This document shows, one piece after another, positions 15,399 through 24,094 of a stretch of DNA of 53,003 nt (position 1 is its first letter; each line of letters opens with the position of its first letter). The translations under genes were made by a program, and so were the position numbers. A model generated the notes under the pieces. It was not told the origin of the DNA, did not search any database, and worked only from the letters and a program-made list of their open reading frames with translations. Source of the DNA: a virus; the IMG/VR virus record IMGVR_UViG_3300010396_000052, positions 1 through 53,003 of that record. One strand, written 5' to 3'.

Positions 15399-16661
15399 AT
15401 GGCTAATTCTCTCTTAACGGCACAGTGGGTCGCCCGCAAGGCACTCATCCTGTTGCACGCTAAGTCTAATATGACGGGTCGCACGAACCGCGACTACCAG
15501 TCGCTACTCCCCGGTCCAATTCAGGGTGTTGCACTAGGTCAGGTTCTTAGCATCCGGCTGCCGTTCCAGTACGTGGGACGTAAGGGTAACTTGATGAACG
15601 CTGAAAACAGCGTCCAGCGCTTTACTCAGTTGAACGTAAGTAATCAGCGTGGTGTTGATATCAACTTCACCAGCGTTGAGCGTGCAATGCAGTTGAATAA
15701 CTTCGAGGAGCAGGTGCTTGAGCCAGCAATGGCCAAGGTCGCTGCTCTGCTTGAGATCGACGTGGCCTCTCTGGTCAATCAGGTCCCGAAATTTGTTGGC
15801 ACGACCAGCACTTCAGTCTCTTTCAGCACGGTCCTCCAGTCCGAGCGGTTCTTGACGGAAGCTCTGGCCCCCGAAGACGACAAGCGTACGCTTACGGCAA
15901 ATCCGCAGGCTTCGTACGAGTTCGTCCTCGACAACAAGGCGCTGTTCAATCCTACGACCGAGATCTCCGATCAGTGGTTGGAGGGTGTCATTGCGGATAA
16001 GGTGGCGGGATACGTCGTCTTCCGTAATACGAAGCTGCCGGCTCATACCATTGGTGTCGTGACGGGTTCTACCCCGACCGTATCCGGTGCTGGGCAGGGC
16101 AATAGCGGCTTCGGCAACGCTTTCATCAGTTCAACGAGCCTCGTGACCAGCGGCTGGGCTTCTGGTGCTACTACCCTTCAGGCTGGAGACGTAATCACGA
16201 TCTCCAACGTGAATGATGTGGACCCGGAATCTAAGGTATCGCTTGGTCGTCTGAAGCAGTTCGTCGTGAATAGCACGGTCTCTGACACTGCCGGTGGAAT
16301 CACCGTCTCTATCAGTCCGGGCATTATGTACGGCGGATCGTATCAGAATGTGGACTCCCAGCCTGCGGCTGCTGCAACTATCACCGTGATGGGTGACGTG
16401 CCGGCCAACGTCTCGGGTGTGACGGTTAAGCAGTCTCTGGCTTGGTATCGCGACGCAATCGTGTTTGCCAATCCTCCGATGCTCGACCTGTCGCAGGTTG
16501 TCAAGTTTACCGCTCAGGAGAGCTTCGAGGGCTACAACCTTCGCTTTGCTCAACAGTGGGATGTGAACAGTGACCTGCTCCCGGCTCGCCTAGACACCAT
16601 TTCCGGTGAAACTCTTTCGTACCCCGAACTCGCGGTCCGAATGATTCATAAGCCGGCTTAA
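15399..16661 (+). CDS. Major coat protein, P22 gp5-like (420 aa)
   Basis: The N-terminus MANSLLTAQWVARKALILLH and the segments GQVLSIRLPFQYVGRKG, RGVDINFTSVERAMQLN and VLEPAMAKVAALLEIDV match the P22-type coat protein (HK97 fold). Length is close to P22 coat (430). Residues 215-330 form a Gly/Thr/Ser-rich stretch at the place of the P22 insertion domain. The C-terminal part (SGETLSYPELAVRMIHK) is conserved. The gene is more GC-rich and uses stronger codons than its neighbours, fitting high expression. Confidence 0.9.
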   Translation: MANSLLTAQWVARKALILLHAKSNMTGRTNRDYQSLLPGPIQGVALGQVLSIRLPFQYVGRKGNLMNAENSVQRFTQLNVSNQRGVDINFTSVERAMQLNNFEEQVLEPAMAKVAALLEIDVASLVNQVPKFVGTTSTSVSFSTVLQSERFLTEALAPEDDKRTLTANPQASYEFVLDNKALFNPTTEISDQWLEGVIADKVAGYVVFRNTKLPAHTIGVVTGSTPTVSGAGQGNSGFGNAFISSTSLVTSGWASGATTLQAGDVITISNVNDVDPESKVSLGRLKQFVVNSTVSDTAGGITVSISPGIMYGGSYQNVDSQPAAAATITVMGDVPANVSGVTVKQSLAWYRDAIVFANPPMLDLSQVVKFTAQESFEGYNLRFAQQWDVNSDLLPARLDTISGETLSYPELAVRMIHKPA

Positions 16662-16995: not shown

Positions 16996-17682
16996 ATGGA
17001 GCTTGACGACTTCAAGCACGTGATGGTGGCAACGCCGTCGTATTCAGGGGATGTGTGCATGGACTTTACTTGGTCCTTGCTCCAATCCCAAATGTTGTGC
17101 CTAGGACATAAGATCCTACTGGACCTCGAATGGGTCCAAAACCTCTCAATCGTAGAGGCTGCTAGGAACTATCTCCTATACGTCTTTCTTAAGAAGACTA
17201 AGTATACCCATATCATGTTTATTGATGGGGACTTGGGTTGGCAACCGGACGCCATTCACCGAATGGTCGAGCGCCAAAAATACGTAATTGGCGGAGTCTA
17301 TCCTCGTAAGAATGATAAAGCGGAGTATCCGTATGTTCCACTGCAGGATCACACGGACGTGGCTTTAAGGCTTCCTACCGGCTTTATGCTGTGCGCTCGT
17401 ACCGCTATTGAAGCAGTCTGCGAAGACGCTCCGCGCTTCAAGATGCCATACGATGGTGAGATACACGAAGTCCCAAGAATCTTCGAGTTCAAAATTGATG
17501 GGGAACGGAACTTAGTATCTGAGGATTACGTATTCTCAGACAAGCTCCGGGATGAGGGATTTAGGTTATTCGTTGAGCCTAATATTAACTTTGTACACTC
17601 CGGCCGTAATGGTTGGAGAGGCAATCTAGATAAGCAAACCATACCAGCAGTGTGGGAAGCTATTCGGAGGCCAAATGTATAA
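16996..17682 (+). CDS. GT-A-fold glycosyltransferase (228 aa)
   Basis: Starts with an ATPSYSGDV nucleotide-sugar-binding strand (residues 12-20) and has the metal-binding DxD motif in MFIDGDLGWQPDAI (D77, D79), then RKNDKAEYPYVPL, an acceptor-side acid in VSEDYVFSDKLRDEGF and a C-terminal aromatic/basic tail. Residues SIVEAARNYL are typical of Anp1/Mnn9-like GT-A enzymes. RBS AGGTGAG. Its paralog lies at 18496, with a methyltransferase between. The set most likely builds a sugar on a virion or host surface target. Confidence 0.75.
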   Translation: MELDDFKHVMVATPSYSGDVCMDFTWSLLQSQMLCLGHKILLDLEWVQNLSIVEAARNYLLYVFLKKTKYTHIMFIDGDLGWQPDAIHRMVERQKYVIGGVYPRKNDKAEYPYVPLQDHTDVALRLPTGFMLCARTAIEAVCEDAPRFKMPYDGEIHEVPRIFEFKIDGERNLVSEDYVFSDKLRDEGFRLFVEPNINFVHSGRNGWRGNLDKQTIPAVWEAIRRPNV

Positions 17683-18214: not shown

Positions 18215-18292
18215 CTGGGCGTAGCTCAGTCTGATTAGAGCGCCCGGCCCGGAACCGGGAGGCCGTGGGTTTGAATCCTACCGTCCAGACCA
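18215..18292 (+). tRNA. tRNA-Pro (anticodon CGG), with encoded CCA
   Basis: Full cloverleaf: acceptor CTGGGCG/CGTCCAG (one G-U), D stem GCTC/GAGC with a 10-base loop, anticodon stem CCCGG/CCGGG, variable loop of 5, T stem GTGGG/CCTAC, discriminator A and CCA at 18290-18292. The anticodon loop is CCCGGAA, so the anticodon reads CGG (18250-18252). Two oddities: position 33 is C instead of the near-universal U, and the T loop is TTTGAAT with T for C56. Confidence 0.75.
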
Positions 18293-18297
18293 AATTT

Positions 18298-18373
18298 GCG
18301 TTATAGCACGCGGGTCGTGCCGCCAGCCTTCCAAGCTGTGTAGATCAGGGTTCGATTCCCTAATGACGCTCCA
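18298..18373 (+). tRNA. tRNA-Gly (anticodon TCC), irregular D arm, encoded CCA
   Basis: Seven acceptor pairs GCGTTAT/ATGACGC (one G-U), anticodon loop CTTCCAA giving TCC, canonical T loop TTCGATT, discriminator T and CCA at 18371-18373; 76 bases in all, the normal size. The anticodon stem CCAGC/GCTGT and T stem each have one mismatch at their outer pair and the D arm folds with a short loop, so it is divergent. It starts 6 bases after the first tRNA. Confidence 0.65.
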
Positions 18374-18376
18374 AAC

Positions 18377-18498
18377 TTGCTCAGTCGGATATCTCACCCC
18401 GACTAGCACTAGGTAACGGAACCTAGAGTTAACCCGTCGGGACCGTGACTTTTCGCACCTTTTCAGAGCAAAAGCCTGCGCTTATTTGGTGAGATATG
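18377..18498 (+). ncRNA. Structured leader RNA with pseudoknot that covers a ribosome site
   Basis: The hairpin AGTCGG (18383-18388) / CCGACT (18399-18404) has a 10-base loop, ATATCTCACC (18389-18398), that is perfectly complementary to GGTGAGATAT (18488-18497), which is the ribosome site plus the first bases of the start codon of the next gene. Between them lie the hairpins CTAGGT (18409-18414) / ACCTAG (18421-18426) and CTTTT (18459-18463) / AAAAG (18470-18474). CCGAC can also pair with GTCGG (18436-18440), offering a second fold. This looks like a translation-controlling switch; ligand and state are unknown. Confidence 0.55.
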
Positions 18499-19251
18499 TC
18501 TAAGCCTAAAGCTCATATAATAACAGCAACCCCCACTTATACTGGGGATGTCTGCTGCGATTACGCAAACTGCCTCTCTCTGGCTGGAATGCACTGTATT
18601 TTACGCAACGTGTGGATCGAGCCTCGCTTCGCAGCTGGGTTCTCCCTTGTAGAGTACGCCCGAAATTGGCTGGTAGCTGAGTTCCTTCAGAATAAGGCAG
18701 CAACCCACCTATTTTGGATAGATTCCGACCTCTTCTTCCAACCAGATGCCGTCTATAAGATGGTTGCGAGAGGAAAAGATGTAATTGCTGGTGTTTACTC
18801 AACTAAACACGAGACTAGCCCAGTATTCCCCTATACCGCACTCGGTCCAGTAGTGGACGGATTGCAGGAAGCTGAGAGGGTCCCCGGTGGATTCCTCTGT
18901 ATGACTAGGAAAGCCGTTGAAAAGGTCGTTTCGACCTGTGAATGGCACGAGATCGACCACAACGGGGAGCAACGAATGTCTCCGAGGTTCTTCGATTTGC
19001 GATTAGATGGGAAACACTTAGTCGGTGAAGACTACATAGCCTCCGAGCGGCTTCGGAAGGCTGGTTTCAAGATCTACGTTGAAACAGATATTTCTTTCAA
19101 GCATTATGGCCGCAAGGCTTGGAATGCGAATCTAGCTAAGACTCTCCAAAAAGAGAAAGAGCAGGGATTCGAGGGCCAAGGCAGCGATACCGCTTGGGAG
19201 AAAAATGCAAAAGTGGCAGAGAATCCTGCCTTACTTGATAAACTTTACTAG
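18496..19251 (+). CDS. GT-A-fold glycosyltransferase, second paralog (251 aa)
   Basis: Paralog of the protein at 16996: ATPTYTGDVCCDYANCL (residues 11-27) aligns with ATPSYSGDVCMDFTWSL, the DxD motif is WIDSDLFFQPDAV (D76, D78), and VGEDYIASERLRKAGF matches VSEDYVFSDKLRDEGF. It has an extra charged helical tail (residues 215-251). Predicted to transfer a nucleotide-activated sugar. Its GGTGAG ribosome site and start codon are predicted to be masked by the upstream structured RNA, so its translation may be controlled separately from the first paralog. Confidence 0.75.
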   Translation: MSKPKAHIITATPTYTGDVCCDYANCLSLAGMHCILRNVWIEPRFAAGFSLVEYARNWLVAEFLQNKAATHLFWIDSDLFFQPDAVYKMVARGKDVIAGVYSTKHETSPVFPYTALGPVVDGLQEAERVPGGFLCMTRKAVEKVVSTCEWHEIDHNGEQRMSPRFFDLRLDGKHLVGEDYIASERLRKAGFKIYVETDISFKHYGRKAWNANLAKTLQKEKEQGFEGQGSDTAWEKNAKVAENPALLDKLY

Positions 19252-22253: not shown

Positions 22254-22616
22254 ATGGCTCCAACGAATCTATTCGGACGAAAAAAGTACGACGTTGCGTC
22301 CACTATAGTTAATGTGCCGAACGGCGCTAGCATCGCACGCATAAGTTTTTCTAGACATTGTACTGCTAGTCCTACTGGATGGAATGACCCCAAAGATGAA
22401 TTGACTTGGAAAGTAGAACAGTTCTCGAATAATGCATGGATACTTTTGGGATCATCCACCACGATGGGTGGGATTATAACTGAGCCCACGGGAGAAGAAA
22501 ATACAATTAGTTGGGACGAGACTCCGCTACTTCCGGGCGGTGATCGAAGACTAAGAATTAGTCTCCGTCCTAATGGTATGCCTGTTGATACCGAAGGCTT
22601 TATTGAATGGCTTTAG
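22254..22616 (+). CDS. Putative virion protein (120 aa)
   Basis: Starts MAPTNLFGRKKYDVASTIVN two bases after the previous stop. A beta-sandwich pattern with ARISFSRHC, LTWKVEQFSNNAWILLG and RRLRISLRPNGMP. Ends overlapping the next gene by 10 bases. Composition matches the neighbouring appendage proteins. No named family. Confidence 0.5.
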   Translation: MAPTNLFGRKKYDVASTIVNVPNGASIARISFSRHCTASPTGWNDPKDELTWKVEQFSNNAWILLGSSTTMGGIITEPTGEENTISWDETPLLPGGDRRLRISLRPNGMPVDTEGFIEWL

Positions 22617-24094
22617 TACAATCAGCCTTTAAATCTGCTGGAGCAGTAACCAGCTCGACGCTAGCTTTCCCGAGTGCAGTTGTCGGCGGGCACGCCAAAT
22701 TTTGCATATTATTTATTGGGCAAGGCACAGCTACTGCAGCAGCTTCTGATAATTTAGATGGCTCGTATTCAGTTGATGTTTCATTAGTTGCTAGTAGCAC
22801 CGAAGCTGCTATTGCCTCAAAGCTTAATGCAACTGCTGGTTCAACTACTGTAACTGCTACTCAAACTAGCGGCGCGGGGCAGTTGCGCTTCATTATTGCT
22901 GAGCGCGATGATATCGCCACTTCAGCAGCATTAGACCAGACTGCCAGCGCTACTAACACTTTCGCTTCCGTATTTCAATGTGGTACTACAGCTACTACTA
23001 CTTTCGCCAGCGAAATAGGCATAGTTGCAGCTTTATTCAATGCTTCTCCCGCCGCAGTAACGCCGTCGTCCGGTTGGACCATTGATCCTACTAGTAATAC
23101 TAAAGTTTGGGCAGCTTATCAGACCTTTACTAGCACAGGTGCCCAGACAGCCTCGTTTACGATTACTCCACCGCCCAGTACAGTAGCCGGTCCCGGAGTT
23201 ATCGCCACTTATAAGTCTATATCAGCTACTCCTCCCACACTTACCGCCGGGGTGGGTACTTTCGCTTTATCAGGCGAGATTGCTACTCTTTCAACAAGTA
23301 ATGGGTCTTTTAGCCTGCCGCTGGCTGTAGGCAGTTTCTCCTTTGTCGGGGAAAGCGTCACCCTAATACAGACGGGCAGTTTCACTATAGTCGCCCAGCC
23401 GGGATCTTTCGATTTAATCGGAGGTTTGGGAAATAGTGATTACGCAATTGATGCGTCAGTAACTTCTTTCGCACTATTTGGTCCTCCGGTAACTCTAACT
23501 GGCCCCAGTGGTACTGTATTCTCTCTTACTACGTCTCCGGGACTTTTTGGAGTCTCTGGTTTTAGCTCGACAGGCTCTCAGAGCATACAGTTCTCCTTAG
23601 TCCTCCTCGGGCAAACTTACAGCACTTTAGGGTTCGATATCTCAGGATCGCTGCAAAGCGGCCAATGTGTAGGGGGCATCCCGCTTCCGGGACAGTTACT
23701 CAACATAGAAATCATTACCGATGCTTTCCAGAAGATTGGTATTGTGGACGAGACTTCCGTACCGTCCGCGGAACAAGGAGCTAACGGACTGCGAATCCTA
23801 AATGATTACTTACTTAATCAAGCAGCGGACGGCCTTCGCCTTGGGTGGTTTAAGCAGACAGATCTTTCAGCTATAGCGCCCCTTAGGCAAGAAGATGTAT
23901 TTGGAGTCAAATTGCTTCTGGCTAGACAGTTAGCTACTCACTACGGCATAACTGTTCAGGATCCAATTCTTCTTCAGAATATGGAAGAAGCAGAACGTAT
24001 GCTGACTAAGCGCTCTCTGGCTTACTTCGAGAGTGATCTATCTGAACTCTCGCGGCCGCAAGGCGGACCGTGGGGCGGCCCAAACTGGTTCTAA
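22607..24094 (+). CDS. Fusion: decorated repeat protein with P22 gp4-like adaptor domain (495 aa)
   Basis: Residues 1-205 are a Thr/Ala-rich beta domain. Residues 214-320 hold about five copies of the G-(T/S)-F-x-L-x-G motif found in the protein at 6135. Residues 365-475 (IEIITDAFQKIGIVDET, PSAEQGANGLRILNDYLLNQ, DVFGVKLLLARQLATHYGI, MEEAERMLTKRSL) show the helical pattern of P22 gp4-type tail accessory / head-completion factors, which seal the portal. Normally that domain is a separate protein of about 160 residues; here it is the C-terminal part of a larger surface protein. The following hub gene (25186) supports the adaptor role. Confidence 0.65.
   Translation: MALVQSAFKSAGAVTSSTLAFPSAVVGGHAKFCILFIGQGTATAAASDNLDGSYSVDVSLVASSTEAAIASKLNATAGSTTVTATQTSGAGQLRFIIAERDDIATSAALDQTASATNTFASVFQCGTTATTTFASEIGIVAALFNASPAAVTPSSGWTIDPTSNTKVWAAYQTFTSTGAQTASFTITPPPSTVAGPGVIATYKSISATPPTLTAGVGTFALSGEIATLSTSNGSFSLPLAVGSFSFVGESVTLIQTGSFTIVAQPGSFDLIGGLGNSDYAIDASVTSFALFGPPVTLTGPSGTVFSLTTSPGLFGVSGFSSTGSQSIQFSLVLLGQTYSTLGFDISGSLQSGQCVGGIPLPGQLLNIEIITDAFQKIGIVDETSVPSAEQGANGLRILNDYLLNQAADGLRLGWFKQTDLSAIAPLRQEDVFGVKLLLARQLATHYGITVQDPILLQNMEEAERMLTKRSLAYFESDLSELSRPQGGPWGGPNWF

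Follow-up and report, generated by a model that had tools for sequence, protein, structure and literature searches.

Riboswitches of the preQ1 and SAM-II type are leaders in which a pseudoknot masks the ribosome site, and Mu-gpT-DE (Rfam RF03012) is an orphan structured RNA located downstream of a head gene in Mu-like phages. The put RNA of phage HK022 (putL/putR) demonstrates that a phage RNA alone can act on transcription, that is, in cis it suppresses both pausing and termination by RNA polymerase (PMC9378689). The element described here occupies positions 18379-18498 of the window (the whole 53,003-nucleotide stretch of viral DNA that was analysed), and comparison with related phages makes it almost certain that this element belongs to a conserved family of structured RNAs, encoded in cis and carried on the late transcripts of phages with a P22-type coat protein. 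This RNA family is apparently new and undescribed: the element has no match among the Rfam 15 models, which agrees with the preliminary description, in which no known riboswitch class was recognised, and no description of it was found in the open-access literature, subscription papers lying outside the search. The element and its neighbours in the window are arranged as follows.

15399-16661, plus strand: P22-type major coat protein, the upstream marker of the syntenic site
18215-18292, plus strand: tRNA-Pro(CGG), context
18298-18373, plus strand: tRNA-Gly(TCC), context
18379-18407, plus strand: hairpin 1 (H1), GCT-c-AGTCGG / CCGACT-AGC, a covarying stem in the 20-sequence alignment and matched by model R2
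18383-18388 with 18399-18404, plus strand: inner stem of H1, AGTCGG / CCGACT, closing the loop ATATCTCACC at 18389-18398
18409-18426, plus strand: hairpin 2 (H2), CTAGGT[AACGGA]ACCTAG, identical in L001; its stem and its loop pairing covary in relatives
18416-18419, plus strand: H2-loop bases ACGG, which form one side of the conserved pseudoknot
18433-18441, plus strand: optional small linker hairpin CCC-GTC-GGG, from by-eye reading of aligned sequences
18443-18449, plus strand: pseudoknot strand CCGT (18443-18446), then the conserved GAC (18447-18449), from covariation
18454-18480, plus strand: hairpin 3 (H3), CGCA..CTTTT[CAGAGC]AAAAG..TGCG, from alignment and covariation
18488-18497, plus strand: ribosome site and first start-codon bases GGTGAGATAT, the exact complement of the H1 loop
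18496-19251, plus strand: downstream gene, phrog_1574, a glycosyltransferase-like protein of 251 aa

The H1 stem, its 10-nt loop and the exact complement in the ribosome site, from which the preliminary description started, are all present where it had placed them, and the two upstream tRNA genes were likewise confirmed. It had further held that such a match was very unlikely by chance, and this is only half borne out. Within the window the loop 10-mer is indeed rare, being absent elsewhere (2 matches on both strands versus 0.12 expected), but a scan of 1.1 Mb of sequence, with about 16,000 possible starts, for loops complementary to a start region gave 584 hits of at least 6 bp, and the window ranks about 6th, in the midst of chance hits. 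Because chance matches between hairpin loops and starts are so common, a lone window sequence could not decide whether the element is real, and a generic loop-to-ribosome-site detector proved too noisy for discovery. The same frequency is what speaks for a fortuitous complementarity in an unconstrained spacer; as an account of the element itself, however, this is very improbable and is refuted by covariation, synteny and model searches. That is to say, it is the comparison of related sequences, rather than the single 10-base match, that shows the element to be real; the 10-bp match in the window may itself be chance, but the element is not.

A relative of the phrog_1574 glycosyltransferase-like protein is found in the IMG/VR contig L001 (66% identical), whose equivalent place reads CTAGGTAACGGAACCTAG...GGGACCGTGACTT with a different first hairpin; two further relatives, L110 and L054, were reached through the glycosyltransferase and the coat protein. 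The same architecture was found downstream of the coat gene in many coat-protein relatives. H1 comes first, followed by H2 (with a loop pseudoknot of 4-5 bp), the invariant GAC and H3, whose loop is of the GAGAGA type; a short linker then leads to the next gene's start. The folded RNA is about 110 letters in size. In the aligned members the H3 loop follows the consensus xARAGx and is GAGAGA in most. With model R1, the element was detected in 66 of the 83 coat-protein loci searched in related metagenomic phages, between the coat module and the neck genes, and as a single copy in each of eight contigs searched whole. A degenerate-pattern scan of IMG/VR returned 44 contigs, 41 of them with the same gene order, and an exact-motif scan returned only the contig of L001 and three chance hits in coding sequence (L026-L028). 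The cultured P22-coat phages examined gave no match at the coat/neck boundary, and one metagenomic relative, L032, seems no longer to carry the element. Eight members of the window's subgroup, the window itself excluded, went into model R2, whose sole window match is at 18372-18498 (43.1 bits, E 8e-12), a match which is not wholly independent since R2 includes the close relative L001. R2 also matches the canonical members L060, L051, L042 and L086, and this ties the two subgroups together.

The glycosyltransferase gene, which had been taken as the partner of the element, is not the usual one. In most relatives the gene just 3′ of the element encodes a protein of 133-141 aa that matches the head-tail adaptor Ad3 (phrog_637). 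In the window the adaptor homologue is located at 23702-24091, about 5 kb from its usual place beside the element; it is 69% identical to Ad3 of L001 and sits C-terminally in an open frame of 495 aa (22607-24094), at its end. The window carries two phrog_1574 glycosyltransferase-like genes, at 16996-17682 and 18496-19251, which are about 40% identical, and a methyltransferase gene and the two tRNA genes lie between this pair, inside the structural gene block. Since glycosyltransferase, methyltransferase and tRNA genes have been inserted around the element in the window, neither neighbour is fixed. The suggestion that the adjoining tRNA genes matter to the RNA fares in two ways: neither L001 nor most of the family has a tRNA gene next to the element, but the core module described below is often found beside tRNA genes elsewhere.

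Base pairs were counted across related phages, and their covariation came out clearly in favour of a structured RNA. In the 20-member alignment, 82.8% of cells are paired over the whole structure versus 61.8% after shuffling, and the covariation score is 0.458 versus 0.146. It can also be seen there that the H1 loop is CCCUCACC, that about five bases of the H2 loop recur as their reverse complement directly 5′ of GAC, and that the H3 loop is GAGAGA. The preliminary description had called the RNA pseudoknot-like; it is conserved and does contain a pseudoknot, but the pairing that defines the family, namely that of the H2 loop with the strand before GAC, had been missed. In the window this contact joins ACGG (18416-18419) to CCGU (CCGT at 18443-18446), immediately 5′ of the invariant GAC. 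Across 58 distinct rows, 92% of the pseudoknot cells are paired and 13 further pair types occur; the covariation score is 0.310 versus 0.083 for shuffled alignments (reached in 0 of 500 shuffles), with 36 double-changed cells versus 9.5, and both sides have changed in 4 of the 5 pairs. The pseudoknot was absent from the search model R1, so the alignment (A8) was not fitted to it. The pair sets include ACGUC:GACGU, AAGCC:GGCUU, ACGCC:GGCGU, ACGCG:CGCGU, AUGUC:GACAU and ACGAC:GUCGU; the window and L001 share ACGG:CCGU, and L031 has AAUG:CAUU. Even when the strand was chosen automatically, the H2-loop match was recovered in 42 of 54 non-redundant members, against a permuted mean of 13.7 and a maximum of 23. 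In the family alignment G-U pairs outnumber A-C pairs (29 versus 13), which favours the strand in the coding direction as the RNA.

Other pairings were less consistent. The competing fold proposed earlier, CCGAC (18399-18403) with GTCGG (18436-18440), can form, and in the minimum-energy fold of the window it is present alongside the pairing of the loop with the ribosome site (z -2.4), but it is no feature of the family; GTCGG falls inside the small linker hairpin, for which differently sequenced counterparts were read by eye in L031, L052, L030, L035, L044 and L042. The H1 loop is usually CCCUCACC, while that of the window, AUAUCUCACC, shares only CUCACC with it; the loop is also different in L001, L030 and L031 (CCCUUCUC type), so that CCCUCACC is a majority feature and not a defining one. 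No partner was found for this conserved loop in the family comparison, and this was counted against the best explanation given below. A kissing contact between the H1 loop (CUC) and the H3 loop (GAG) was rejected because the H3 loops CAAAGC, GAAAGA and ACAG co-occur with an unchanged H1 loop. An outer helix between the 5′ flank of H1 and the linker before the ribosome site is striking in L031, L042, L067 and L082, and it is not claimed since its partner permutation gave p 0.12, in a test whose window row, misread from the reverse strand, is to be disregarded. The adaptor gene contains a site complementary to the H1 loop, located within its coding sequence. As for individual variants, L033 (5862-6030) carries a hairpin of about 30 nt inserted in the H1 loop, and L036 (9304-9412) and L037 have an A/T-rich H1 without CUC in its loop and a reduced pseudoknot (ACGG versus CCGA).

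The idea that the H1 loop masks the ribosome site finds support in one lineage and not across the family. Four glycosyltransferase-type members are known, and in these the loop and the site differ together: AUAUCUCACC:GGUGAGAUAU in the window (10 bp), CCCUCAC:GUGAGGG in L110 (7 bp), CCUCAC:GUGAGG in L054 (6 bp) and UUCUC:GAGAA in L001 (5 bp). Pairing of at least 5 bp is thus present in 4 of 4 glycosyltransferase-type members versus 6 of 51 adaptor-type members. A loop complement of at least 5 bp in the start region occurs in 10 of all 55 non-redundant members, compared with 4.3 expected from shuffles; among the 51 adaptor-type members the 6 cases stand at chance level (3.8 expected, p 0.19), and the partner permutation with the window left out gave p 0.40. 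The minimum-energy fold of the window, at -40.7 kcal/mol, buries the ribosome site, and the family fold with the ribosome site open amounts to -28.3 kcal/mol, the energy of the pseudoknot being uncounted. On these sequence comparisons, masking is credible for the glycosyltransferase lineage but not what the family was selected for, and whether it is real in that lineage seems to us an evenly balanced question.

It may be asked whether the whole family is a translational control leader, riboswitch-like or protein-responsive, in which the H1 loop covers the ribosome site of whichever gene follows and keeps the synthesis of adaptor or glycosyltransferase far below that of coat protein. This would fit the position of the element, which is immediately 5′ of the adaptor or glycosyltransferase start codon in nearly all members, as well as the 10/7/6/5 bp series above; adaptor ribosome sites also pair with the H1 loop somewhat better than coat or head-closure sites do (-5.6 kcal/mol versus -3.9 for coat and -2.9 kcal/mol for head-closure sites, in a set from which the window was absent). 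However, complementarity across the family is no better than chance, and the core copies before tRNA genes have nothing to mask, which leaves the leader possible but doubtful.

These core copies were encountered because R1 also matches bacterial contigs, which share with the family the pseudoknot strand, GAC and the GAGAGA hairpin; in many cases the loop that pairs can be recognised as well (ACACC:GGUGU, ACCGC:GCGGU, AACGCC:GGCGU). In phage P1 one copy is located between tRNA-Ile and ban (885-939 of L192, NC_005856 70261-72097) and reads GGAT[TCACC]ATCC...GGTG-TGAC-A-GCCGG...CCGGC; no RNA is annotated there, and the P1-like phage D6 has the same. The core lies inside the tRNA clusters of the roseophages MD18 (Phaeobacter) and RpAliso (Ruegeria), about 12 nt before tRNA-Leu, and it was also found in Marinobacter phage PS3, on a Microbulbifer plasmid, in prophage-like contigs beside C4 and isrK RNAs, and as two copies in a Planktothrix phage (a cyanophage). 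In the latter (L195, 1092-1697) both copies are directly 5′ of a gene annotated as a Cas9/Csn1-family endonuclease. Some bacterial contigs carry several copies around tRNA-Ser, tRNA-Pro and tRNA-Met, some of them directly before tRNA-Pro or tRNA-Met; L178 and L208 have about four cores of GAC and a GAGAGA/GAAAGA hairpin within about 0.5 to 1.3 kb, one of which directly precedes a tRNA gene. Taken singly, core matches outside the coat-phage family have modest E values, from 1e-7 to 5 with BLAST and from about 1e-11 to 1e-4 per genome with the model; the loose loop-pairing test also gives a positive result at 34% of random positions, and weak R3 matches in bacterial genomes (E 0.001-0.01) were treated as unproven. 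Given the short shared motif, the modest matches and the permissive test, the extension to this wider core is likely rather than proven; that is, the coat-phage family and the wider core likely belong together.

Two further explanations bear on these contexts. The RNA might be a processing or stability element, which would shield RNA of the coat module, or RNA with tRNAs in it, from exonucleases, or mark a cleavage site, and so uncouple the flanking blocks; its persistence at the coat/neck boundary despite accessory genes inserted on either side (the window and L001), its occurrence within tRNA clusters and the A/U-rich linker 3′ of H3 in most members all agree with this, but the conserved loops and GAC suggest specific recognition instead of simple stability, and we regard this explanation as unlikely. 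The release from the late transcript of an RNA acting in trans or as a catalyst (small RNA, packaging RNA or ribozyme) would suit the compact pseudoknotted fold with invariant unpaired bases and the several copies on some contigs; yet the element has no Rfam ribozyme or sRNA match, and the family copy is always in cis, at the same operon site and on the coding strand, so this is improbable.

Core copies directly before tRNA genes make masking of a ribosome site impossible for those copies, and we infer that all contexts are best accounted for by a transcript-level role (readthrough, pausing or processing), any ribosome-site masking being a lineage-specific addition. The module would fold on the nascent transcript as it emerges and, like HK022 put or nut sites, could change RNA polymerase readthrough or pausing, where one block of an operon gives way to another or where untranslated tRNA stretches are crossed. 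In the glycosyltransferase-bearing lineage (the window and three relatives), the H1 loop would additionally pair with the ribosome site and lower the translation of the glycosyltransferase. The joint explanation, namely a conserved cis-RNA, action on the transcript and lineage-specific masking, carries about even confidence; the transcription-level role of the conserved RNA, taken separately, is put forward tentatively. Equally tentative is the broader proposal that an undescribed RNA module of loop pseudoknot, GAC and GAGAGA hairpin serves as a cis signal on its own transcripts in unrelated proteobacterial and cyanobacterial phages, with the P1 copy between a tRNA gene and ban, and that it possibly represents a new class of RNA antiterminator or a processing signal. 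If control of readthrough or processing were true, it would mean an RNA-based balancing of coat versus neck protein output and of tRNA-cluster expression, and the glycosyltransferase lineage would be a case in which such an element has acquired ribosome-site masking as a second function. In any case, dozens of environmental phages carry, at the same operon boundary, a covarying pseudoknot that is absent from Rfam, and its core is present in the laboratory phage P1.

Compared with the known systems, the preQ1/SAM-II type leaders resemble the window in the possible contact between its hairpin loop and the ribosome site, but the new RNA has no Rfam match, its masking is not conserved in the family and its core copies stand before tRNA genes. 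Mu-gpT-DE shares with it the orphan status, the structured fold and the vicinity of a phage head gene, but it comprises 53 positions, belongs to another phage group and gave nothing above its gathering cut-off in six member genomes. Neither R1 nor R3 nor the core pattern matches HK022, so the new RNA is not of the put family; put consists of two stem-loops with a triplex, whereas the new RNA combines a loop pseudoknot, GAC and a GAGAGA hairpin. Put is nevertheless comparable as a phage cis-RNA of about 70 nt whose stem-loops lie within transcripts and which works without a dedicated protein factor, and its action at the level of RNA polymerase would suit the core copies before tRNAs.
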